Source of the DNA: an uncultured bacterium
GTDB taxonomy: Bacteria; Planctomycetota; UBA8108; UBA1146
Direction of reading: 5' to 3'
DNA: 39,394 nucleotides
Assembly: GCA_913056395.1 (NCBI GenBank)
Contig: CAJXMG010000026.1
Coordinates: 1 to 39,394 of the forward strand
Under the pieces are notes generated by a model that worked only from the letters and a program-made list of their open reading frames with translations, ran no database searches and had not been told where the DNA came from. Position numbers and translations under genes: made by a program. Of the stretch, positions 7,318-36,379 are shown piece by piece (position 1 is the stretch's first letter; each line of letters opens with the position of its first letter).

Positions 7318-8391
7318 TTGCTTCGCCCGCACCTTTCCAAGTTTTTATGGATCTTCTTTCTGATCCAGCTTTGTGCCGGTCCTTCTCTATGGGCCCAGGG
7401 CTGACCTGCCTGAACCAATCCGGGTGCCCCTGATCCGGGCGCCCTGGGATCCGGTCTGGGTTCCATGTCACAGGGTTCAGGTTCGATTCAGACGCGTCTC
7501 TCCATTAGCCGGGGATTCGGCTTTGATGGCACCCATTACGAAGACACGGGCATCGATGAATTCGGCAACACCATATCCGTGCCGGGTCACGTCCACGATG
7601 TCACCCTCGATCTCTTCCGCGTGGTGATGCAGTTTGACTACGTTATCGACGATCCATGGAGTATTCGCGCTCGCCTTCCACTGGAGAGAAGAACCCGAAC
7701 ATCTTCCATTTCACAGATCGATCCGGCGGCAACACCGGAACAGATCGAGGCGATGGAGCGAAATCTGCAGATCCATCACCCTTCAGAAATTCTGACAGGC
7801 TTCGGAGATCTGGAATTGCTCGTCGGTCATCAGTTCCGTGATTTCGGGGTCGAGATGGGCAGCCTGTCCATCGCATTGGGTTCGACACTGCCCACGGGCA
7901 AGACAGAAGACAATCCCTATGAATTGGGAGATGCAGGGGAGCGCCATGAACACATCCAGTTTGGCAGTGGCACCTTTGATCCCATCCTCGAGTTTTCCTA
8001 CGTTCGCCCCTTTGGTGAGTCGAGTGTCTTTAGCCTTTATGGCCAGGGGCGATTCCCTACTTCCACCAGCAGTAAGGGCTACAAGGGGTCGCAGTTGATC
8101 CAGGGTGGCATGGGTGTCGTGACGGCTCTGGGCGAGGTGGGTCCCTGGGAACATCTGAACGGGGTTCTGGGCCTGTTTATGCAGGATATGGGTCGAGCAT
8201 ATTGGGAGGGGGAAGAAGACCCGAATACGGGTTTTCAGAACCTTTCCCTGCAGTTGGGAATCAACTGGCGTGACGAAATGATGAGAAGTTGGAATCTGTC
8301 TCTGATCCTGCCGCTGTCTGTCGATACTTCATCTGGCCCTGAGGGCACCTATGATCCCGGGCCGGTGATCAATCTGGCGATTGGTTTTTGA
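7318..8391 (+). CDS. Outer-membrane beta-barrel-like protein with two in-frame UGA codons after the signal peptide
   Basis: The usual gene call starts at ATG 7465 (308 aa) and lacks a signal peptide, although the protein looks like an outer-membrane barrel: alternating amphipathic strands and a terminal phenylalanine (NLAIGF). Extending the same frame upstream gives a Gly/Pro/Ser linker, then TGA at 7408-7410 and 7402-7404, then a signal peptide (MLRPHLSKFLWIFFLIQLCA followed by GPSLWAQG). That segment starts at TTG 7318, four bases after the strong site GAGGAGG (7307-7313). The interruptions are codons 29 and 31. The gene itself also ends with TGA, so UGA cannot be sense everywhere. The barrel resembles DUF3187/transporter-like barrels, which is tentative. 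Its last 23 bases overlap the convergent MaoC-like gene. Confidence 0.65.
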
Positions 8392-9505
8392 CGGCGGCAT
8401 CCATCCGTGGCCGAATCAGTGTGCGTACGGACTGAAGCACGATTTTTTCCAGCAGTTCAGGAGATTCCTGAGCGCAGATTTCCTCTATTTCATTTCGTGA
8501 GCGCTGCTTCTCCTTGAGAAGGCGTTTAGGAAGTCTGTTTCCGGATCCGAAGTCTTCTGGGGCGATATTTTTAAGCCCGAGTGTTTTGACCCTGACCGCT
8601 TCCAGGTGGTTGTCGATGGGGTCGACAGAAAGAATCCGGCTAATGGCACTGACCTGATCTCCAGGCGAAACAGGATGAAGATGGGAGCAGTGAAGGACTG
8701 CTTCATCGAGAACCTGCAGGAAGTCCCGATTGCTGATGGCGGAAACCAGTGAGTAAACCAGTCCCCCGGAGATGATCAATCCTCCCTTGCCGTATCGGTC
8801 GGCATCCCAGTGAATCGGGTGGGATTCCTGAAGCATCGTCGAAACCGACAAATTTTCTGACCAGGAGATGGGACGTTGGGAGCGGTGGTGGAAGACATCA
8901 CCACGAACAAGATGAAGCTGTGGGGCCTCGGGGAACGCAGCAAGGTCTTTGTAGCGTTGGGTGAAAAACTCTGCGGCCTGTTGAAAGTATTGGTCAGCGT
9001 GGAATCGTGGGGTCGGTTCCGGTTTAGTTTTGATTTCGCTCAGTGGATCAAAGTAATAACGCATCTGAAGCGAGTAGATGCGCTCATTTCTTTGGTTCAC
9101 CAGAATGTGGGTCATCGAAAGAACACTGGCGTCACCGCGACTGGTATTTCTGATCTCCTCCACCCTGGAGTAGCTTTTCAGGGTATCGCCGGCATAGACG
9201 GATTTTTCCTGTCGGGCATTTTCAAACTCCAGTTGGTATCGACACTGGTCAGAGAAAGGGTCCAGAGCAAAACTCAGCGACATGTTCAGGAGAAGATCAG
9301 GGGGGAACGGAATCTCTGAAAAACCACAGGCTTTGGAGTATTCGAGACTGGTGTGAATCCTTTGGGAAATTGGGAAGATGGAAGACCAGCGGCTTCGCCA
9401 TTGATCTTCGACAGTGATCTCGTGTGGGCTTTCCAAGATCAATCCTGGCCATGCATGGTTCAGGTCAAATACGGGCGAAGCTGTATAGGTCAAAAAAGGC
9501 TCCAT
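8369..9505 (-). CDS. MaoC/Htd2-type double hotdog acyl-CoA hydratase paralogue (second copy)
   Basis: This protein of about 378 residues aligns along its whole length with the next gene upstream in the operon (shared ILESPHE, ENARQE, NTSRGDASV, TLGLKN). The C-terminal half carries ESHPIHWD...Y...GG, the hotdog hydratase catalytic region in the variant seen in Htd2/mesaconyl-CoA hydratase-like proteins (usually N.HxIHxD). Members add water to, or remove it from, acyl-CoA double bonds. Here the first position is Glu, whereas the sister has Asn, so the two may differ in activity. The frame runs back to 9595, but ATG 9505 lines up with the sister's N-terminus; its ribosome site is poor. It shares the strand and probably the transcript with the lyase gene. 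The convergent barrel gene overlaps its last 23 bases. Confidence 0.7.
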   Translation of the reverse strand: MEPFLTYTASPVFDLNHAWPGLILESPHEITVEDQWRSRWSSIFPISQRIHTSLEYSKACGFSEIPFPPDLLLNMSLSFALDPFSDQCRYQLEFENARQEKSVYAGDTLKSYSRVEEIRNTSRGDASVLSMTHILVNQRNERIYSLQMRYYFDPLSEIKTKPEPTPRFHADQYFQQAAEFFTQRYKDLAAFPEAPQLHLVRGDVFHHRSQRPISWSENLSVSTMLQESHPIHWDADRYGKGGLIISGGLVYSLVSAISNRDFLQVLDEAVLHCSHLHPVSPGDQVSAISRILSVDPIDNHLEAVRVKTLGLKNIAPEDFGSGNRLPKRLLKEKQRSRNEIEEICAQESPELLEKIVLQSVRTLIRPRMDAAVKNQSPD

Positions 9506-9596
9506 TGCATTGGGCGGCCCCAAGTCACTGATTTTTTTCTCAACGCACGCCCTCCTCTTTAAGTTCCCCGATCCCCTATGGTCTAAACACTGCACT

Positions 9597-10691
9597 TTAT
9601 ATGGGTCGTAAGAGAGATCGGGTGGCTTGCATGGCTATCCTGCCTGCAAGAACAGGGCACCGGTCCCTACAAATAGCTTCGATTTCTGAAGGTCTGAGCT
9701 GCTCAAGAGAAAGAAGTTCAGCCGGAATATCGACCCCAGAGAGTTCTCTTCCCACATCGACATTTTTCAGCCCGAGAGTTTTCACAGTAATCCGCTCCAG
9801 CTTCTCTGAGATTTGTTCTGATTCGATGATTGTTGAGATGGCACCCAAGCCATCTTCGGGTGTCACCGTGTTGATGTGGGAAGAGTGAACCAGGGTGTCA
9901 TCCAAAATTTGCCTCAGTTCACGATCAGCCGCCGCAAAAACCAGCGATTGCACAAAGCCGCCACAAACAACAATTCCGTCACGGCCATAATGGGTTGAAT
10001 CCCAGTGCACCGGATGGGTGTTTCGATAGGTTGTCGACAAAGCCAGATTTTCTGACCAACCCAAGGGTCTCACCATGGGATGAAGGATCAGTGATCCGGG
10101 TTTCAGTGGATGGGTTTGAGCAGAAGGAAAAGTTGTCACTTCGCTGTAGTGGTCAATCAGCGAGGTTGCAGATCCCTCAAAAAATCGTGAACGATCGTTT
10201 GAAACAGGTTCAGCTGTGCTCTTTGCCGAGACGGGCAATGGATCGTAGTAGGATCTCTTCTTCAGAGAGAAGACTCTTTTATCTCTCTGATTGATCAGGA
10301 TGTGAGTGGAGTGGATAACGCTGGCGTCCCCACGGGAAGTGTTCGCCATGCCATCGATTCTTGTGAAACTTCTCAGGGTGTCCCCGCAATAAACCGGTAC
10401 TTCCTGTCGAGCATTTTCCAAGCCCAGGTGAAGTCGACAGCTTTGGGAAAACGGTTCAACGGAAAAACACAGGGTCATATTGAGAAGCATTGCCTGAGGA
10501 ATGGGGATCGAATTGAACCCGCACCGGGCTGCATATTCTGAGCTGGTATGCAGATGATTGGACGTCGGAAAGACCGATTGCCACTGCATGCGCCACGATT
10601 CATCGATGGTGACTTCATGGGGGCTTTCCAGAATCTGGCCCGGAGCAGCTGTATTCAAATCCAGTCCGTAGCGCGGCAATTCTCCGATCAT
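9597..10691 (-). CDS. MaoC/Htd2-type double hotdog acyl-CoA hydratase (mesaconyl-CoA hydratase-like)
   Basis: This 364-residue protein has two hotdog-like halves. The C-terminal one contains NTHPVHWDSTHYGRDGIVV and then a Gly-Gly pair, matching the N.HxIHxD region of Htd2/mesaconyl-CoA hydratase-type MaoC proteins. The expected reaction is reversible hydration of an enoyl-CoA-type thioester such as mesaconyl-CoA. The start ATG shares its A with the stop of the lyase gene (TGATG), and GGAGG lies seven bases upstream, so translation is coupled. Pairing with a CitE/HpcH lyase is the arrangement expected for making or cleaving beta-methylmalyl-CoA-like compounds, but the exact substrate is inference. 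The next gene downstream is a diverged tandem copy. Confidence 0.78.
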   Translation of the reverse strand: MIGELPRYGLDLNTAAPGQILESPHEVTIDESWRMQWQSVFPTSNHLHTSSEYAARCGFNSIPIPQAMLLNMTLCFSVEPFSQSCRLHLGLENARQEVPVYCGDTLRSFTRIDGMANTSRGDASVIHSTHILINQRDKRVFSLKKRSYYDPLPVSAKSTAEPVSNDRSRFFEGSATSLIDHYSEVTTFPSAQTHPLKPGSLILHPMVRPLGWSENLALSTTYRNTHPVHWDSTHYGRDGIVVCGGFVQSLVFAAADRELRQILDDTLVHSSHINTVTPEDGLGAISTIIESEQISEKLERITVKTLGLKNVDVGRELSGVDIPAELLSLEQLRPSEIEAICRDRCPVLAGRIAMQATRSLLRPI

Positions 10692-11584
10692 CAGGCGACC
10701 TCCACTTTTTCCAAGGCAGCCTGAGAAAGGATGCGTTGGGCGATTTTTACCATTGGTGGACCCACCATTTCGCCGTCCAGCATGGCGATACTCCCTTGCT
10801 CCTTCACTGCGGCGATGACTCTTCTGGCGTGCTCAATTTCTTCAGCAGTTAAGGAATAGATTTCCAATGCCCACTGCGCTTGTTTGGGTGTCAGGGCCAG
10901 GCAGCCATCAAAACCCATTTTTTTCATGCGCCCGTTTTGATCTTTGAAACCATCTTTATCTTCGAGATCCAGATAGACGGTAGAGACCGCTGAGATCTGA
11001 CAGGATCGGGCCACCTGCAAAACGGTTTGTTGTGTATTTTGATAGCACTCTTCACTGAGCTCGGAGTGCATTTCGACGCAGTAGTCGACGTGTCCGAATG
11101 CCAGAGCAGCGACTCTTTCTGAACTGCGTGCAATTTCTTGCAGAGACAGAACAGCACCGGGTCTCTCAATCAGGGGAATTACTGAAATTTTGCCTGGGGG
11201 AAGTCCCAGCGTGGACTCCCTCCTCTGAATCAGATCCACTCCATGTTTCACTTCTGCAGCGCTCTGGACCATGGGAATCATGATGCCATCCAGATCCTTG
11301 TGCAGGCATTCGATGACATCGGAGTGCATCTCTTCAGGCTGGTCGGGGCCATTGATTCGCAGGATCACTTTTCGGTCCTGAAACAGACCCATGTGGAACA
11401 TGCGGCGAACGCGGTGTCTTTGCGTGGATTTCTGGTCGTTGGGAATGCTGTCTTCCAGATCGAGGATCAAGGTGACCCCTGCGGGAATGGAGCGGATCTT
11501 CTCCGGGGATGCCGTGGATTTGACAAACATCAGCGCACGGAAGTGCTGAGGTCCCAGATTGTGGGTAGGGATTTGTGAAGCCAC
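10691..11584 (-). CDS. HpcH/HpaI aldolase family CoA ester lyase (CitE/malyl-CoA lyase-like)
   Basis: This 297-residue protein has the CitE-type barrel: LILDLEDSIP near residue 40, an arginine in ILRING, IPLIERPGAVLSL with the metal-ligand glutamate, AFGHVDYCVEM in place of GxEDl, and the closing DGEMVGPPMVKIAQ segment. Such enzymes reversibly cleave (S)-malyl-CoA, beta-methylmalyl-CoA or citryl-CoA type esters in a Mg2+-dependent reaction. The start is GTG 11584, six bases after AGGAGG. That ribosome site sits inside one arm of a perfect 14-bp hairpin (11587-11627), suggesting translation control. The stop overlaps the next gene's ATG (TGATG), so lyase and hydratase should be made together. 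The substrate is not determined. Confidence 0.82.
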   Translation of the reverse strand: MASQIPTHNLGPQHFRALMFVKSTASPEKIRSIPAGVTLILDLEDSIPNDQKSTQRHRVRRMFHMGLFQDRKVILRINGPDQPEEMHSDVIECLHKDLDGIMIPMVQSAAEVKHGVDLIQRRESTLGLPPGKISVIPLIERPGAVLSLQEIARSSERVAALAFGHVDYCVEMHSELSEECYQNTQQTVLQVARSCQISAVSTVYLDLEDKDGFKDQNGRMKKMGFDGCLALTPKQAQWALEIYSLTAEEIEHARRVIAAVKEQGSIAMLDGEMVGPPMVKIAQRILSQAALEKVEVA

Positions 11585-27132: not shown

Positions 27133-28521
27133 TTAACGCTGAGAGCCCTCGATCTTTTTCAAGGCCAACAGGAGATCTCCTTCGCTTTGCTGAATTGCTT
27201 CGCAAAGGAAAGAGAGAGAGACCCCCGCCTGTTGGGCGCGAGCCAGCAACTGCAGGAGGACTCGCTGTCCTTCTCCCACATGCTTGCGACGAATCGCCCG
27301 CCAGGTTTTGTCCTGTTCTGCCGTAAGAGCGAGTCGTCCCATGGAAAGCTCCAACTGCTCCAGCGCTGCCCCGGCATTGGCAAGTGGCATCGCCATGATC
27401 GAGGGTTCGATGGGAATGACGCTGTCCGGCTGCTGCGTCTTTTCAGTCTGGAATCCCGCCCAAACCGACTGCAACAATGATTCCAGAGAAGAATCGGAAT
27501 CACTTTGGGTGATTTGCGGAAGGCTCCCATTCTCGATGTGGGATCGGTCATATTCGATTTCCTGAACTCCCTTGCGGGCGAGTTCGGCAATTCGATGATC
27601 GATGGGGTCGAGAATCTTTTCGATCAGGCCGTTGAGGGCACGGGCTCCGTCTCCCATCGCCTGTGCCTGTTCTGCGATGGCTTCCAGAGCGGCTTCCGTG
27701 AATATCAGATCGATGCCGTGGGCTTTCCAGAATGTGATCTTTTGTGAAAGAACACCGTTTTGCATCTCTTTCAAGAGATGAACAAAGTCGGAAGTACCCA
27801 GAGGGTTCAGCAAAGACACCTTGTTGAATCTGGAAGCGAGTTCGTCACTCAGACCCAGGGTCACGAGATCCGATTTCTGGATGAGATCCCGTATGTGTGT
27901 TGTCGATTCCGGTTCTTCGTCGATCTGAAAGCCGATGCGTGAGCCTTCCTCGAGTCGCTCTTCAACGGCGGCCTGAATCCACGGGAAGGCTCCGCAGCAG
28001 ATGAAAAGCAGGCGGGATGTATCCAACCGGTTTTGCGGTTCCTCCTTGTTCTGAAGGATCACTCCATCCATGAGTGTCATGAGCGCTTCCTGAACAGCAA
28101 GCCCCGGATCTCCAGGAGAAGGGCTGGTGCGCAGGCAGTGGTCGAGACGGTCGATGAGAACGATGCCGTGCTGGGCGAGATTCAGATCGCCTCCGGCGCG
28201 ATGCAGCAGGGCATCGGTGATCCCTTGCAGCGCCTGCCCTGCCATGGCGGGCTGGACCAGCGACGAGGCATCGACCTGAACCCATGGCACACCGAGGAAC
28301 TCCGCAGTCTTTTGAACAAGGAAGGTCTTGCCGACGCCTTCCGGTCCAGCGAGCAGAAGGTGCTGCCCTTGCGGTTTGGAGTCCTTGAACAGATGGTGAT
28401 TCAGGTAGTGATTGTAGACCGCCACCGAGATTTCCCGTTTGGCGTGTTCCTGACCCCGAACGTGGAGTTCCAGATGATTCCAGATTTCCATGGGGTCGGG
28501 GAATGCGGACCGATCAGACAT
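27133..28521 (-). CDS. ClpX-like AAA+ protein with altered Walker B
   Basis: The 462-residue product aligns with the ClpX AAA+ module but lacks the N-terminal zinc finger. Visible are RGQEHAKREISVAVYNHYL, Walker A GPEGVGKT (residues 59-66), a Walker B reading GIVLIDRLDH where ClpX has IDEID, the RIGF element (ClpP-contact IGF in ClpX), the LSDELASRFN arginine-finger block, and sensor 2 as GARAL. The catalytic Glu is therefore Arg (residue 125) and the GYVG pore loop is not recognisable, so ATP hydrolysis and threading are doubtful. The C-terminal 120 residues are unique. ATG 28521 has AGAGGA upstream; the longer frame to 28548 is less likely. It may be a regulatory or scaffold unfoldase relative. 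Confidence 0.8.
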   Translation of the reverse strand: MSDRSAFPDPMEIWNHLELHVRGQEHAKREISVAVYNHYLNHHLFKDSKPQGQHLLLAGPEGVGKTFLVQKTAEFLGVPWVQVDASSLVQPAMAGQALQGITDALLHRAGGDLNLAQHGIVLIDRLDHCLRTSPSPGDPGLAVQEALMTLMDGVILQNKEEPQNRLDTSRLLFICCGAFPWIQAAVEERLEEGSRIGFQIDEEPESTTHIRDLIQKSDLVTLGLSDELASRFNKVSLLNPLGTSDFVHLLKEMQNGVLSQKITFWKAHGIDLIFTEAALEAIAEQAQAMGDGARALNGLIEKILDPIDHRIAELARKGVQEIEYDRSHIENGSLPQITQSDSDSSLESLLQSVWAGFQTEKTQQPDSVIPIEPSIMAMPLANAGAALEQLELSMGRLALTAEQDKTWRAIRRKHVGEGQRVLLQLLARAQQAGVSLSFLCEAIQQSEGDLLLALKKIEGSQR

Positions 28522-28693
28522 GCGAGTCTTCCTCTCAATTTCACACATGGCAGTCTAGCGAATCCTGTGAACCATGACATCGTTTGTTCTACGGATCCGG
28601 CAGGCTTACCCCTTTTTTATGAAATCCTCATGGCGACAGATTCACTGCTGGATTCCAATCAGGGCGTCTCTGCTGAATGAAATCGAGGCTGAC

Positions 28694-30137: not shown

Positions 30138-31457
30138 TCAATCAGCGGGTACGGGTGCACTCGGGATAACGATCCCGGTCACAGACCGTTCGTCCGAGAT
30201 GTACTCGCTCTTCAACTTCTCAAGCTGCGGGCGGATATCCCTGCCAAAGAGATTGACCAGCTGCCTTTCATCGACGTTGTCGATCCTTTGAACCATCAAC
30301 GCTTCCGCAGCGGACATCGGATCATGCATCGATGTTTCATCATGAACCCGTGCAATCCCCAGCAGACCGCCGAAGCTCTCGCGGGCGGTTTGCATGTCAC
30401 TCAGTTCCACCGAAGGTTGCAGCCCATATCGAATCGCCGCATCGAGGCGGGCTTGGGCTTCGAGGAGTGCGGTACGGGGATCCTTGCTCTCAGCGGCGAT
30501 GGGTACGGTGATCGTCAACAGCTCCGGGTTGACGGTGGGGTCCCAATCGATGGAGGAGGGGCCGGTCTGAAGGATTCGCAGGACACGGGGAATGAAAAGC
30601 CCCAGCGCCAGAGACTCTTTGGTTCCCGGGGAAGGCACCCGCCAACTGCGGACGATGGCACCGGGGACCTGGGGGAGATTCTTTTTGACGCCGATATCGC
30701 CGTACAGTGCCGGCCTGGGAGTGACCTTTGCTACCGGCTTTCCCGCGGGGATTCTGGCGAGTTTGCGGCGGGCAATCTCCAGAGTAGGGGCGGGGTCATG
30801 GGGACCAACGATGGCGATGTGCAGGTTGGCCGGAGTGAAAGTTTCCTGACGCAGTTTTTCCAGGTCTTCAAGGCTGAGAGGCCCCAACTGGTATTGGCCT
30901 CGGGGACCGGAGTTCTGCGGAAGCAGGCGATCGAGAACACGATCCTGCAAGCCGGGGACCAGAGTTTTCAGCTGTTGCTTTTGTGCCGCGAGCAGATCTC
31001 CGCGAACCCGACCCACCAGCGATGCTTCGGTGAGTTTGAATTCCAGGCGGTCGACGATTTTGTTGAGGTGCGCTTCCACATCCGCGGGCGGAACCTGTTC
31101 GACCCACCAGGTGCGCTGGTTGCCGACTCTGATTTCACCCTCAGCGGTTGGAGCCCTGTGGGCACGGCGCAGAACCTCCGCCAGAAAAAGGGTTCTTCCT
31201 GAAAGTCCCTGGGGATCGTGCTGGGAGCCCATTTGCCAACTGGTGATGATGATGGCGCGCTGGTCTTCTTCGGAACGAAACGAAGGCAAAGGAAGAGAGC
31301 CAAACTCGAGACCGTTCTCGAGGGGGTACCAGACCTGTCTGGGAGACTGGGCGTGCACCGGATCTTGAGTAAAAGGAGATCCCGGAAGAACCCCGGTGAG
31401 AAGTGCGAGTGCCAACAGGGCCTGAAGCCAGTGTCGAGTTCCCAAAATCTTCACCAT
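30138..31457 (-). CDS. Exported M16-like protein lacking the zinc motif
   Basis: This 439-residue protein has a signal peptide (HWLQALLALALLTGVLPG, cleavage near HAQ) and an M16-type layout. The M16 start block is recognisable as IIITSWQMGSQHDPQGLSG, but the following TLFLAEV replaces the HxxEH zinc motif. The middle repeats the M16 pattern FTPANLHIAIVGPHDPAP with RRKLARIPAG. Such inactive subunits normally pair with an active M16 protease or help bind a substrate, so a non-catalytic envelope partner is likely. It is last in the minus-strand group after the Clp/release-factor fusion (78 bases between) and convergent with the decarboxylase. Confidence 0.75.
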   Translation of the reverse strand: MVKILGTRHWLQALLALALLTGVLPGSPFTQDPVHAQSPRQVWYPLENGLEFGSLPLPSFRSEEDQRAIIITSWQMGSQHDPQGLSGRTLFLAEVLRRAHRAPTAEGEIRVGNQRTWWVEQVPPADVEAHLNKIVDRLEFKLTEASLVGRVRGDLLAAQKQQLKTLVPGLQDRVLDRLLPQNSGPRGQYQLGPLSLEDLEKLRQETFTPANLHIAIVGPHDPAPTLEIARRKLARIPAGKPVAKVTPRPALYGDIGVKKNLPQVPGAIVRSWRVPSPGTKESLALGLFIPRVLRILQTGPSSIDWDPTVNPELLTITVPIAAESKDPRTALLEAQARLDAAIRYGLQPSVELSDMQTARESFGGLLGIARVHDETSMHDPMSAAEALMVQRIDNVDERQLVNLFGRDIRPQLEKLKSEYISDERSVTGIVIPSAPVPAD

Positions 31458-31535: not shown

Positions 31536-34500
31536 TCAGCGACTCTCCGAGGTATGGCGCGTCGAAGCCCAACTGGCGACCAGATCAAAATTACCATCCA
31601 GTGCTTCTTCCGGTTGGGTGAATCGCCAGCCCTCAACCAGATTGACCAATTTCGGGTCAGGATTCAGGCGGTAACGCTGCACGATTTCATCCTTGCGGGG
31701 AGAATCTTCCAGCAATTTTTGCGCATGACGGACACGCTCATTACGGTCGCCGGGTGGCAAGCCGAGGGGCTGCGGGGCGATGGAGATGCGAGCGTGGATT
31801 TTTCGATCCTTGTGATGAGCCTCAGGGTTCTCGAGTTCATGCAATCCACCAAGAGGATGGAGGAAACGCCAGGAAGCGAAGCCGGTCACTGCGACGACCC
31901 ATTCACCATCGGGCGTATGGGTCAGTTCCTCCAGCTGCATGTTTCGCTTGTCCGCCCAATCAACGATCATCTTTTTCAATCGGGAAGACCAGGCGACCTG
32001 TTCCTCCTGTGATTCCCGATCGCGCTGAACCGGCTGAATTCTCAGGTAGGCATCCTGGGGAAGGTCTTCGTCGAGGACCTCCACCGCATGGTCGAGAAGG
32101 TAGATCTGCTGAGCGAGCCTCTGAATCAGGGCAGGGGGGTAACTGTCCCGGGAAGTTTCCGCATCACCGGAGAGTCGGTCGAGCAGCGATCGGGCTGTTT
32201 CGGTTCCATGGTCGATGCGATCCCGCAACTCGGCACGGGCCAGAACCGGTAATCTCTGTGGATCGTCCCAGAAGCCGGCAACGCCCATGCTTTCCATCGC
32301 CTTGGCTCGGGCTTCACTCCACTCCGTGGATTCGACAAGGTTTTCCAATTTGTCGACCTGTTCGGCCAGTGCTTCGACCTCTTCCAGACGGCCGGAACCA
32401 CGCATGGCGATGTAAGGAACGAGCAAACGGGGAGAGGAATCGGAGCTGTCCTCCAGTTCGGGGATGGGGACCAGCTTCTGTTCCGCCACTGCCTGTTCGG
32501 TGGCATCCGGATCGACAAAGTCGACGACGATTTTGCCCCCTTCGCCGCGGACGAAAAGGAACTGGTCTGCCTGCGGATCATCGTGGGCGAGCATTTCCCG
32601 GGCGATGGGAGTCAGAGCATAGCGTTCGACCGCCCGGCGCAGCGGCCGTGCGCCCAGGTCGGCGGTCAGGCCCTGAGTGAGCAAGAGATCGATGGCGGAA
32701 TCTTCCCACTCCACGGCCCACGGGCGATCCTTGAGACCCCGGCGCGAGAGCACCCTTTCCAATTCCAGCTCGAGCAGTGCCCGCTGCTCCGTTCGTGAGA
32801 AGGGACGGAAGGTGACGATCTGGTCGATCCGGTTGAGGAACTCGGGACGGAAGGTCTCCCTGAGAGCGGTTTCGTAGGGGTTGTCTGATCCTCCGGCACT
32901 CTTGAAGCCGAAGGAGCCCTGGGAAGCTTCCCGGGCACCGACATTACTGGTCAGGATAAATACCACGTGTTTGAGGCTGACCACGTGACCCGCTGCGTCA
33001 GTCATACGCGCATCATCGAAGGCCTGCAGGAATAGATCCCAGACATTGGGATGGGCTTTTTCAAACTCATCGAGCAGCACCACACTGAAGGGCTGGTTGC
33101 GAATACTGTCGAGCAGACTGCGCTGGTGATGATTCTGAACACCACTGCCGGAACCAAAGAGTTTGCTGAGATCTTCGTAGGATTGCAGTTCACTCATGTC
33201 GACCCGCAGCAGCCGGTCCTTCGATCCAAACAGATACCGGGCGAGAACCTTTGCGCTCTCGGTTTTTCCGGTACCGGTGGGGCCAGCGAAGAAGAACACG
33301 CCCAGAGGACGGTCGGTGTCGGTCAATCCCGCTTTCAGCAGGGTGATGCGATCAACCATGCACTGGATCGCCTCCTCCTGACCGATCAGGTGATCGCGGA
33401 AGAATTTTTGAACCTTATTTGGATCGAGGCTTTCGTTGGGATCGACGAGAACCGTGGGTAGTCCCGAGAGATGGGTGATCTCTTCAAAGACATCCTCGGG
33501 GGTCAGCATGATCTTTTCAGCCGGGGCCTTGTTTGCCGATTTTTTCTGCACCAGTGATTTCATCAGATCAAAGGCGCCGCCGAGTGGAGCCTGGAATGAG
33601 AGGAACTGGCTGCTGAGTTCGACCATCAACTTGGCGACGGTGGCGGGGGTAGAAATACCACTCTCACCCTCCAGTCGTTGTGCTTCGTGAAGGAGGATTT
33701 CTTCAGCGGTACTGGATTCTGGTGAAGGGATGGATTCGACGTCGTAAAACTTCCGCAGGGCAGAGTTGCTGCGCAGCATCCTTTCCATGTCGTTCTCAGA
33801 AAGAACACCCAAAACTGTGATGCGCTGGCGCCGGACTTCATTGTTGAGTCGGTCGAGAAGTCCAATCGGGTTTTGCATGTGTTTGCCCGCATGTTCCATC
33901 TCGGCAAAGTCAGGAATGTAGAGGATAGTTTTCGGCTGCTGCAGTTCGGGCAGAATTTTCGTCCAGCGCTCTTCCATCTGACCGATGAACATCATTCCGG
34001 CTATCAGGTCCTGAGCCGATGATTCGAGAACGGTCCATCCCTGATCTTCCAGCTGACAAAGCAGTGCCAGGGCGATGGTTTTCTTGCCCACTCCGGATGG
34101 CCCGGTGATCAGCAGTGATCGGGGATCGTCGAGACTGAAGCGCTCGACGCTGGAATGCAGATGGTCCTTCTGGGTGCTGATCAGGGAAGACTGGCGCAGC
34201 TCTGCTTTTTCTTCGGCGCTTTTTTCAGGCCAGACTTCGAAGATGCCTTCGAGTTCGCTCATGCGGAGTTCCTCTCGCAGGGTTTCAACTTCCTCTGCGT
34301 TCAGGATCGCAGACAGGATGGAAACAGATTCTTTGGGGTCGTCGGAACCTTTGCAAAGCTCCACCAGTTTCGGTAGCTCTTCGGCAAAGGGTGATTTTTT
34401 CAGTAGGTGATCCCGGTTGTCGATGATCAGTTGAGTCCACTGTGGATTGTCCACCCAGGGATACTCGCAGATCGCTGTCTCCAGAGTGACGGTCGGGTCT

Positions 34501-35120
34501 CTTAGCATCAGGACTCTGGCGGCAAACAGGTTCCACTGATCGGGCATTTCCGCGGAATCCAGTGAGTTTTTCAGGGTGTCGTCCGGAAGGGGAACATCGA
34601 CCACTTCGGGATCACCCAGAGCGACCAGGGCTGCTGAGCTGCCTGGGTAGTTTTCAAGGTTCAGGGAGAGTTCGACGACCGCCTGGTGATCGTGGCTCTT
34701 TTTGACTTCTTCAGTGAGCTCTTCCAAAGGTGAAGAGAAGATGGTGAAGCCGTACATCTCGAGTTCTTCACCCAGATCGAATTCGGCAGCGTTTGCGTCA
34801 GGCATTTCCGGATCTGTTTCATCTTCCGGTACTTGATTGTTGCCCCTCAGATAATGATCGACACTTTTGCGAACCAGATAGACAAAGAGTCCGCAGAGCA
34901 ACAGCATCAGACAGGCGACAGCTCCGTCGACCGGTTTCCCATTTCCTGCGACAAGATTCCACAGAATTTGGGTAGCTCCGATCAGCAGGAGGACCGAGAG
35001 ACCGTAAAGAGCGATGGTGACCAGAATGGAAGACAGGGTAATGAAGCCACCGAAGACGGCGGTCACAATTTTCAGGGCGACCGATGGCGTATTTTTATGA
35101 GAGTCTTCGGCGGTAGACAT
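31536..35120 (-). CDS. Membrane-anchored Clp-type AAA+ protein fused to a GGQ-less release-factor-2-like domain
   Basis: This 1194-residue protein starts with hydrophobic spans (about residues 16-57 and 66-83), then an unfamiliar helical region (100-320). AAA1 has Walker A GPSGVGKKT (340-348), but its Walker B region, ILYIPDFAEM, lacks the DE pair. AAA2 is ClpA/B-like and intact: GPTGTGKT (613-620), VVLLDE (680-685), sensor LTSN, arginine finger FLNR (Arg764), and GARPLRR (823-829). Residues ~905-1187 resemble RF2: GFWDDPQRLP, DAYLRIQ, WADKRN, GGLHELENPE in the GVHRLVRKSPF position, and IVQRYRLNPDPKL ... ALDGNFD. The GGQ-containing segment is missing and the SPF decoding tripeptide is NPE. 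No long ClpB-style middle coiled coil is seen. It would sit on the cytoplasmic face of the membrane. Confidence 0.88.
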   Translation of the reverse strand: MSTAEDSHKNTPSVALKIVTAVFGGFITLSSILVTIALYGLSVLLLIGATQILWNLVAGNGKPVDGAVACLMLLLCGLFVYLVRKSVDHYLRGNNQVPEDETDPEMPDANAAEFDLGEELEMYGFTIFSSPLEELTEEVKKSHDHQAVVELSLNLENYPGSSAALVALGDPEVVDVPLPDDTLKNSLDSAEMPDQWNLFAARVLMLRDPTVTLETAICEYPWVDNPQWTQLIIDNRDHLLKKSPFAEELPKLVELCKGSDDPKESVSILSAILNAEEVETLREELRMSELEGIFEVWPEKSAEEKAELRQSSLISTQKDHLHSSVERFSLDDPRSLLITGPSGVGKKTIALALLCQLEDQGWTVLESSAQDLIAGMMFIGQMEERWTKILPELQQPKTILYIPDFAEMEHAGKHMQNPIGLLDRLNNEVRRQRITVLGVLSENDMERMLRSNSALRKFYDVESIPSPESSTAEEILLHEAQRLEGESGISTPATVAKLMVELSSQFLSFQAPLGGAFDLMKSLVQKKSANKAPAEKIMLTPEDVFEEITHLSGLPTVLVDPNESLDPNKVQKFFRDHLIGQEEAIQCMVDRITLLKAGLTDTDRPLGVFFFAGPTGTGKTESAKVLARYLFGSKDRLLRVDMSELQSYEDLSKLFGSGSGVQNHHQRSLLDSIRNQPFSVVLLDEFEKAHPNVWDLFLQAFDDARMTDAAGHVVSLKHVVFILTSNVGAREASQGSFGFKSAGGSDNPYETALRETFRPEFLNRIDQIVTFRPFSRTEQRALLELELERVLSRRGLKDRPWAVEWEDSAIDLLLTQGLTADLGARPLRRAVERYALTPIAREMLAHDDPQADQFLFVRGEGGKIVVDFVDPDATEQAVAEQKLVPIPELEDSSDSSPRLLVPYIAMRGSGRLEEVEALAEQVDKLENLVESTEWSEARAKAMESMGVAGFWDDPQRLPVLARAELRDRIDHGTETARSLLDRLSGDAETSRDSYPPALIQRLAQQIYLLDHAVEVLDEDLPQDAYLRIQPVQRDRESQEEQVAWSSRLKKMIVDWADKRNMQLEELTHTPDGEWVVAVTGFASWRFLHPLGGLHELENPEAHHKDRKIHARISIAPQPLGLPPGDRNERVRHAQKLLEDSPRKDEIVQRYRLNPDPKLVNLVEGWRFTQPEEALDGNFDLVASWASTRHTSESR

Positions 35121-35212: not shown

Positions 35213-36379
35213 TCACTGCCACGAGGAGAAAACCATTCCCTCGCGCAGATAGATGAACAGGCGTCTGTTGATCCCCGTTTCCCGCCAGTTCTCAGACCGC
35301 CGGAGAGACGCGGCATAACGATCAAAAACAGTGGGGTACTGTGATTGAGGGGAGCCAGGGGATCTCCCACAGGCTCGTCGAGGCAGGGTCAGGCGTTCTG
35401 CCTTTCGCTGCATGAGAGCGGTCGATATATCGGTTCCGGCAGGGAATCTCTGTCGGTGAAGGGAAACCCGTTCTTCTCCAAACAGGGCTTTGGATGGGGT
35501 GGAGGAAGAAGAGGGGGGCGAGAGTTCGATCAGGGTCCACTCTTCCGTGGATGGTGGAATGGAATGGTGAGGAAAGATCGGGAAGAAAGCCGGTGAAACC
35601 GGGGGACGCAATTTTCCCGGTTCAACTGGCGCAGGATCTCCGAGCCCCGCTTGCAGATCTGCCAGGATGAAGCGGCGATTTTTTCGATGAACTTCGGCGA
35701 GGTTAAGGTCGAGTTGGATCCAGGCACTGGTCCATTGTTGTCGTATCCACTGAAGACACGAATCGGGATTGACCCGCTGGAACAAGAGCCGATTGCCGCG
35801 GCGCGTTGCACCCCCGGGAAGAGGGTCGAAGGCTTCGATGCCCTGGGCGATGACCTGATGCAGGGGAGAGCAGGCGGTATCACCGAGACAGGGACAGAAA
35901 AAAATCGGAGAACGATCCCGTTCCTCTTTTATCGCAGCCACTATCAGATCATTTGGGATCGACCCATGAATTAATTGGGTCAGGCTTTCAAACATGGCGC
36001 GACGGAGTACAGGGGGATATCGCATATGAAGAATGGCGGTTGAGCCGCAGACTTTTGCGGCACAGCCAGGGGGGAGAAAACCTGGCGAGTGTTGTGTCAG
36101 AAGAGCCGCGGCCACCCGGGTGGCAACACGTGCATGAAACCCTCCACCCGAGGTGTCCATTCCCGCTCCTGCAGGAAAGATGATGGTCATCGATTCCAGA
36201 TCCGGGAGTTTCGGGCTGCCATCCATTTTTCCGGGAACGAGTGAGATGCAGAAGGGGGGTTTCCACAGCCAGATCTGCGGTGGGCCGGGAGGGTGCTCAT
36301 GACATTTTTCCAGTCCCAGAGGACAGGATGAAAGGGAGACCCCCAGAAAGCCGAGAAGTGTCACCGCTGGAATCCACAT
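35213..36379 (-). CDS. Lipoprotein, possibly degenerate M16-like
   Basis: This 388-residue protein has a lipoprotein signal (GFLGVSLSSC). The body lacks an obvious enzyme motif. A block resembling the M16 opening strand and helix (MTIIFPAGAGMDTSGGGFHA) and a later LPGGATRRGNRLLF followed by QWIRQQWTSAWIQLDLNLAE parallel M16 layout, but HxxEH is absent. The similarity is weak and may be coincidental. It precedes the Clp/release-factor fusion by 92 bases on the same strand, so the two are probably co-transcribed. ATG 36379 has AAGGAG upstream. It is read divergently from yaaA. Function unknown. Confidence 0.5.
   Translation of the reverse strand: MWIPAVTLLGFLGVSLSSCPLGLEKCHEHPPGPPQIWLWKPPFCISLVPGKMDGSPKLPDLESMTIIFPAGAGMDTSGGGFHARVATRVAAALLTQHSPGFLPPGCAAKVCGSTAILHMRYPPVLRRAMFESLTQLIHGSIPNDLIVAAIKEERDRSPIFFCPCLGDTACSPLHQVIAQGIEAFDPLPGGATRRGNRLLFQRVNPDSCLQWIRQQWTSAWIQLDLNLAEVHRKNRRFILADLQAGLGDPAPVEPGKLRPPVSPAFFPIFPHHSIPPSTEEWTLIELSPPSSSSTPSKALFGEERVSLHRQRFPAGTDISTALMQRKAERLTLPRRACGRSPGSPQSQYPTVFDRYAASLRRSENWRETGINRRLFIYLREGMVFSSWQ

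Follow-up and report, generated by a model that had tools for sequence, protein, structure and literature searches.

A Clp-type AAA+ ATPase fused to a domain derived from release factor 2: a protein with a predicted membrane anchor in Planctomycetota and other bacteria

Background

What use can a Clp-type ATPase make of a copy of a translation release factor? The question is raised by a gene in contig CAJXMG010000026.1 (GenBank assembly GCA_913056395.1), which comes from an uncultured bacterium of the phylum Planctomycetota. The stretch of DNA analysed has 39,394 nucleotides and will be called the window. Its reverse strand has an uninterrupted reading frame of 1194 amino acids in positions 31536-35120. 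The protein begins with predicted membrane spans and a helical region, continues with two AAA+ domains of the Clp type (D1 and D2) and ends in a domain of some 290 residues, which is homologous to release factor 2 (RF2) and which we will call the tail. The coding of the frame is conserved, since its full-length homologues are 64-96% identical within the genus and 48-53% within the family. We conclude that in the window protein a copy of RF2 has been joined to an AAA+ protein which resembles ClpC and has a hydrophobic anchor at its N-terminus. The fusions are of two types. In type I, to which the window protein belongs, RF2 domain 3 has been deleted. Type II still has a domain 3, whose GGQ loop is degraded (RGGRGRLL is an example).

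The tail derives from RF2

We will start with the tail of the window protein taken alone, which gives weak matches. It is collinear with the prfB model TIGR00020 (E = 0.0032, residues 916-1070 against model positions 2-160), with a score of 16.6 bits for a curated cut-off of 370. When the PDB is searched with this single sequence the two best matches are RF2, also weak, with E about 0.2. The relatives of the tail connect it to RF2 step by step: in single-sequence BLAST comparisons the window tail finds type I tails, these find type II tails, and many type II tails find all the 24 genuine RF2 sequences compared. In seven of eight relatives the Pfam domain PCRF exceeds its curated cut-off, with a maximum of 66 bits.

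Two profiles were used to extend the comparison, A1 with 12 tails from the phylum and A5 with type I tails. Of the 392 genomes of the phylum searched with A1, most have free-standing proteins of the RF2 type among the matches, beside the fusions, with E from about 1e-20 to 1e-44. Compared with all PDB sequences, A5 has RF2 in its 16 best entries (2e-18 to 7e-12), while RF1 appears from about 1e-11. An alignment of A5 with an RF2 alignment by hhalign has a probability of 99.2 and E = 3.3e-19; it joins domain residues 57-316, almost the entire domain, to RF2 9-348, and its gap coincides with RF2 domain 3. The reversed profile, used as a control, gives a probability of 0.7, which is not significant.

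The predicted fold agrees with the profiles. An AlphaFold2 model of the tail has a predicted local distance difference test score (pLDDT) of 89.8 and a predicted template modelling score (pTM) of 0.88. When it is compared with the PDB by Foldseek, the best 50 of 51 significant matches are all RF1 or RF2, and the highest TM-score among the matches listed is that of free RF2 (1gqe, 0.57). Profile and structure searches, which the first-pass annotation of this DNA had set as a check on its own proposal, find release factors. The C-terminal domain derives from RF2.

What the tail has lost and kept

The motifs were compared in 45 fusions, 26 of type I and 19 of type II, with the numbering of Escherichia coli RF2. 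Neither the glutamine of GGQ (Q252) nor the phenylalanine of SPF (F207) is found in any of them: the glutamine is absent in all 19 members of type II, and the whole of domain 3 is a gap in all 26 of type I. The RF2-conserved positions which have been lost are G137/G138 (in GGTE), R200, R203, SPF 205-207, R213, T215 and GGQ 250-252. Those which are kept, most of them in nearly all fusions, are W47, M151, G185, L192, E195, G197, H199, V222, R324, Y326, D335, V348 and G351. RF2 touches the mRNA and the decoding region through GGTE, HRLVR-SPF, R213 and T215. Judging from the known structures of RF2, the residues kept would be needed for the fold, and those lost for contact with the ribosome. Most type I members also have a basic and aromatic block at the C-terminus, RRYRExPSPLVRDxxRGWRTG. 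The tail is under selection, because it has been kept across phyla with this block in most type I members.

Much of this had been read from the window sequence alone. The motifs which the first-pass annotation had placed in RF2 order (GFWDDPQ, DAYLRIQ...WADKRN and IVQRYR...ALDGNFD) are all in register with RF2, and so is GGLHELENPE, which it had put in the place of GVHRLVRKSPF. The GGQ segment, described there as cut out, and SPF, described as replaced, are indeed absent from the window protein.

Distribution and history

The fusion is present in 39 of the 392 genomes of the phylum (A1 profile, E <= 2e-48, long open frames). When 84,980 species genomes were scanned with the type I alignment, 47 loci were found, and their architecture was checked; the scan used type I patterns, so that type II beyond Planctomycetota is outside its reach. 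According to the titles of the records, the fusions belong to Planctomycetota, Acidobacteria, Spirochaetales, Rhodothermales, Calditrichia, Eisenbacteria, Rokuibacteriota, Delta-, Alpha- and Gammaproteobacteria, Bacteroidota (including Ulvibacterium marinum CCMM003) and actinobacterial metagenome-assembled genomes; some assignments of single assembled genomes may be wrong. The family is found sporadically, in the phylum of the window and in about ten other phyla. A survey of planctomycete genomes had been proposed initially: the fusion does recur there, but this limit was too narrow. In 149 genomes around an acidobacterial genome (G397), a search with a mixed profile gave two matches.

In a tree of the tails the 45 fusions form one clade (100/100) which adjoins planctomycete RF2, and type I is a clade inside it (100/100). 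A tree of the AAA part gives the same grouping, with support 89 for all the fusions and 100 for type I. Absence of the tail in homologues of the AAA part was a second check set beforehand; within the fusion clade of the AAA tree no member lacks it. Clp relatives without a tail were considered as counter-evidence and rejected, as they fall outside this clade. On the simplest reading, the fusion would have arisen once, domain 3 would have been lost once, and the gene would afterwards have passed from phylum to phylum, in a direction which we only infer. Type II would be the older form, in which the motifs were lost first; the entire domain 3 would have been lost later, in type I. The series from RF2 to a fused copy with a degraded GGQ loop, and to a fused copy without domain 3, shows a translation factor turned into something else.

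Some related loci deserve a comment. Two genomes have three consecutive Clp-type genes with double AAA domains each (G049:C50:19742-27842, locus L124, and G037:C16:9913-17694). The Clp-type genes tested, from L124 and L019, group together in the AAA tree and lie outside the clade of the fusions. At its C-terminus the frame at 4073 in L124 has a stretch with a faint resemblance to the RF2-like domain (RGEQGLHR; E 6e-5 when five sequences were searched). In locus L142 (G046:C133) in-frame stops split the fusion gene into two open reading frames, either by a sequencing error or in a decayed copy.

The motor and the N-terminal region

The AAA part of the window protein is of the Clp type, with a divergent D1. 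The best NCBIfam matches of the protein are ClpA and ClpB, both far under their cut-offs (269 bits for ClpA, whose curated cut-off is 993). A model of the full-length protein (pLDDT 78, pTM 0.51) has as its nearest solved structures ClpC from ClpC-ClpP complexes. D1 keeps GPSGVGKK as a Walker A-like loop, and an aromatic, pore-loop-like MFIG; its Walker B, remarked on as unusual at first sight, reads TILYIPDF and has no acidic pair. D1 is probably hydrolysis-dead, to judge by these motifs. D2 was expected to be an intact ClpA/B-type domain and is matched accordingly by Pfam: Walker A (GPTGTGKT), Walker B (VLLDE) and the arginine-finger region (EFLNRID) are all kept.

Two features of D2 had gone unnoticed. 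Its GYVG pore loop is shortened or replaced in both types, with loss of the pore tyrosine. A loop with the residues GF, also present in both types, aligns with the LGF loop of canonical planctomycete Clp proteins; G and F are invariant in the type I alignment. In the window protein it reads SFGF, where F replaces the L, I or V of [LIV]G[FL]. The local pLDDT of the loop in the full-length model is below 50, which means that it is flexible.

The hydrophobic N-terminal spans, claimed from the start, are apparent by hydropathy and are followed by basic residues (VRKSVDHYLR). A hydrophobic span is found at the N-terminus of most full-length type I relatives. Pfam has no match for the helical region of the window protein itself; in two type II relatives HEAT_2 covers its equivalent (E 1e-8). 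A Clp_N domain is absent among the 25 Pfam matches listed for the window protein.

Table 1. Position of the fusion gene and its parts in the window
Feature	Positions	Strand	Basis
Whole gene, 1194-aa membrane-anchored (predicted) double-AAA Clp-type ATPase with RF2-derived C-terminal domain	31536..35120	-	Open reading frame; full-length homologues 48-96% identical
N-terminal hydrophobic spans, residues ~17-56 and 66-84, predicted membrane anchor	34869..35072	-	Hydropathy; two long helices in model
All-helical region, residues 115-300	34221..34778	-	Full-length model
AAA domain 1 (D1), residues 330-530	33531..34133	-	Alignments to relatives and planctomycete Clp proteins
AAA domain 2 (D2), residues 604-768	32817..33311	-	Pfam AAA_2, E = 3.5e-44
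GF loop, residues 736-739 (SFGF), place of the ClpP-docking LGF loop of ClpC	32904..32915	-	Alignment
ClpB_D2-small domain, residues 778-847	32580..32789	-	Pfam PF10431, E 4e-10
RF2-derived domain, residues ~900-1188: RF2 domains 1, 2 and 4 without domain 3	31557..32423	-	Profiles, fold, alignment
RF2 domain 1 equivalent, residues 914-1018, includes GFWDDPQ	32067..32381	-	Alignment
RF2 domain 2 equivalent, residues 1023-1118, with other residues in place of GGTE and SPF	31767..32054	-	Alignment
Site of the missing GGQ-bearing RF2 domain 3	31746..31766	-	Gap in 26/26 type I members
RF2 domain 4 end, IVQRYR...ALDGNFD	31566..31685	-	Best-conserved tail part across phyla

Possible roles of the fusion protein

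The hosts of the fusion have the standard factors. Of 18 fusion genomes examined for each, 17 have a genuine RF2 which scores above its cut-off and 17 have a ClpP; the one without a ClpP match is possibly incomplete. The fusion thus replaces neither of them.

The protein as a whole is best explained, in our opinion, as an anchored Clp motor with the pseudo-RF2 domain as a non-catalytic docking module, an explanation in which we have moderate confidence. Docking is the likeliest reading of the tail. The protein would assemble as a ring on the cytoplasmic side of the membrane, with the D2 ring as the power source, while the D1 ring, probably hydrolysis-dead, would grip the substrate through its aromatic pore loops. 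The pseudo-RF2 domains, at the far end, would bring the motor to a translation-related partner or receive it there; the ribosome, a ribosomal factor site or a translation factor are candidates. Membrane-associated proteins may in this way be remodelled, or degraded if ClpP docks on the GF loop.

Several observations weigh against this explanation. With the decoding residues the tail has lost contacts which RF2 is known to make in the A site. Classical threading is doubtful, because the pore tyrosine of D2 is lost. Extra domains of 33 kDa on the side which faces ClpP could block it, and the presence of ClpP in the hosts says little, because it is nearly universal. The window protein has its own deviations: it has a lysine at the threonine position of the D1 Walker A, and its C-terminal block reads Q, V and N at positions which are R, R and D in most relatives. 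Finally, the exact RF2 ancestor, inside or beside planctomycete RF2, is not sure, because the fusions lie on a long branch.

It is also quite possible, without being probable, that the RF2 fold has been re-used outside translation, either for binding a substrate or an adaptor or for bracing the ring. The RF2 residues which are kept look like those of a fold and the lost ones like those of a ribosome contact; a long branch separates the fusions from RF2, and the C-terminus of type I has a conserved motif of its own, PSPLVRD-RGWRTG. On the other hand no partner is known for such a use, other folds would do equally well, and the basic block at the C-terminus persists in most type I members.

The docking explanation has a special case, in which the partner is the ribosome. 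Ribosomes, stalled or bound to the membrane, would receive the pseudo-RF2 at their factor site or A site, and a protein would be removed or unfolded there by the motor. This was the reading of the first-pass annotation, and we find it rather unlikely. The ribosomal A site and the exit of the nascent chain are on opposite sides of the ribosome, so that a motor docked on the A site would not easily pull the nascent chain. GGTE, HRLVR, SPF, R213 and T215 are all lost; the occurrence of the fusion is sporadic, and no neighbour links it to ribosome or rescue genes. Its descent from an A-site protein whose domains 1, 2 and 4 keep their fold argues for ribosome docking, as do the conserved arginines at the type I C-terminus. 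There are precedents as well: Balon and Rv2629/Msmeg1130 bind the A site without GGQ, in a different fold family (PMC10901736), and Vms1 with CDC48 combines a release-factor relative with an AAA+ unfoldase (PMC6514570). A wider version, a quality-control machine spread horizontally among bacteria, in which an anchored Clp unfoldase, possibly with ClpP, docks on membrane ribosomes by its pseudo-release factor, seems to us doubtful. If the tail does bind ribosomes or a translation factor, many bacterial phyla would have a hitherto unrecognised link between translation and the quality control of membrane proteins.

A membrane protease of the ClpCP kind, with ClpP recruited through the GF loop and the tail as a mere regulator, is unlikely in our estimate, although compatible with the other readings. 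It agrees with the invariant GF of type I, aligned with LGF of ClpC, with the best structural matches, which are ClpC in complexes with ClpP, and with the ClpP found in the hosts. The position of the tail on the ClpP-facing side, the missing D2 pore loop and the genome without a ClpP match, possibly incomplete, are unfavourable to it.

The idea of a Clp ATPase with a release or rescue factor that still works has the RF2 ancestry in its favour and is nevertheless refuted because the catalytic domain is missing: the glutamine of GGQ is absent in 45 of 45 fusions, type I has no domain 3, and nearly all hosts checked have a genuine RF2. Chance resemblance, misassembly or a frameshift joining two genes, which the weak single-sequence match (E 0.003) might suggest, has practically no chance of being true, since profile, reversed-profile control, fold and tree concur against it and the identical architecture is repeated in dozens of independent assemblies from the phylum and about ten others.

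Gene neighbourhood

The neighbours of 47 loci from many phyla were clustered, and hardly any family recurs beyond close relatives. Twenty neighbours were compared with Pfam, and all proved to be unrelated enzymes or unknowns. An operon, or a multi-gene system of defence or secretion, was rejected for these reasons. The gene seems to work alone, because no neighbour is conserved across phyla.

A few genes, an M16-like one among them, remain close to the fusion within the family of the window, with variable orientation. In the window the M16-like gene is just downstream of the fusion (30138-31457, reverse strand); it resembles M16-type peptidases (Peptidase_M16_C, E 5e-7), with no obvious HxxEH zinc motif. 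It was rejected as a partner, because in another genus it lies on the opposite strand and is hence not part of a stable operon. A short Clp-like ATPase with a single AAA domain is also found near the fusion and is conserved in the genus (27133-28548, reverse strand; 471 amino acids, AAA_2 E 1e-12). Upstream of the fusion there is an open reading frame of 388 amino acids (35213-36379, reverse strand), which is found only in close relatives and has no Pfam match; the frame is possibly not real. Far from the fusion, positions 8369-11584 (reverse strand) contain two adjacent MaoC/FAS1-dehydratase-like genes and an HpcH/HpaI lyase gene, which resemble a pathway of the mesaconyl/malyl-CoA type.

At other loci we have noted by eye a shared family resembling M48-type peptidases, on the opposite strand near seven acidobacterial fusions (loci L133, L134, L135, L136, L163, L166 and L171). 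A small RelE-like open reading frame of 114 amino acids, also recognised by eye, lies behind the fusion at L148:10317-10661, and the same gene is present in L155.

Comparison with known systems

A Clp-RF2 fusion was not known to the first-pass annotation, and we have found no description of one in full-text literature searches, which did not extend to subscription literature and preprints. Clp is not mentioned in a survey devoted to the evolution of release factors. Both halves come from known families: what is new is the architecture, not the category. Descendants of RF2 have kept their fold, lost the chemistry of termination and become the permanent tail of an unfolding motor.

The fusion resembles RF2 (prfB) in domains 1, 2 and 4, which have the same fold and follow each other in the same sequence. 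It differs by the absence of GGQ and SPF, by a domain 3 which is deleted, or degraded in type II, and by its place behind an ATPase. In common with ClpC and ClpA (Hsp100 class I) it has two AAA domains, a live D2 and the D2-small domain; its GF loop, a candidate for docking ClpP, lies at the place of the ClpP loop. In contrast with them it has a predicted membrane anchor, a helical region and an RF2-like tail, has no match to the Clp N-domain and has lost the D1 Walker B and the D2 pore loop. FtsH is also a membrane-anchored AAA+ machine with a cytoplasmic motor, whereas the fusion, whose anchor is predicted, would form a double ring of the Clp type and has an RF2-like C-terminus instead of a zinc protease domain.

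Balon and Rv2629 are ribosome hibernation factors, release-factor relatives without the GGQ motif (PMC10901736). The tail of the fusion is like them in this respect; they differ by the aeRF1 fold, which is absent among the listed Foldseek matches of the tail, and by not being fused to an ATPase. In eukaryotic ribosome quality control a release-factor relative, Vms1/ANKZF1, is coupled to the AAA+ unfoldase Cdc48 (PMC6514570). The fusion has a pair of this kind in one chain, and if its role were quality control it could in principle be a bacterial counterpart of that system.

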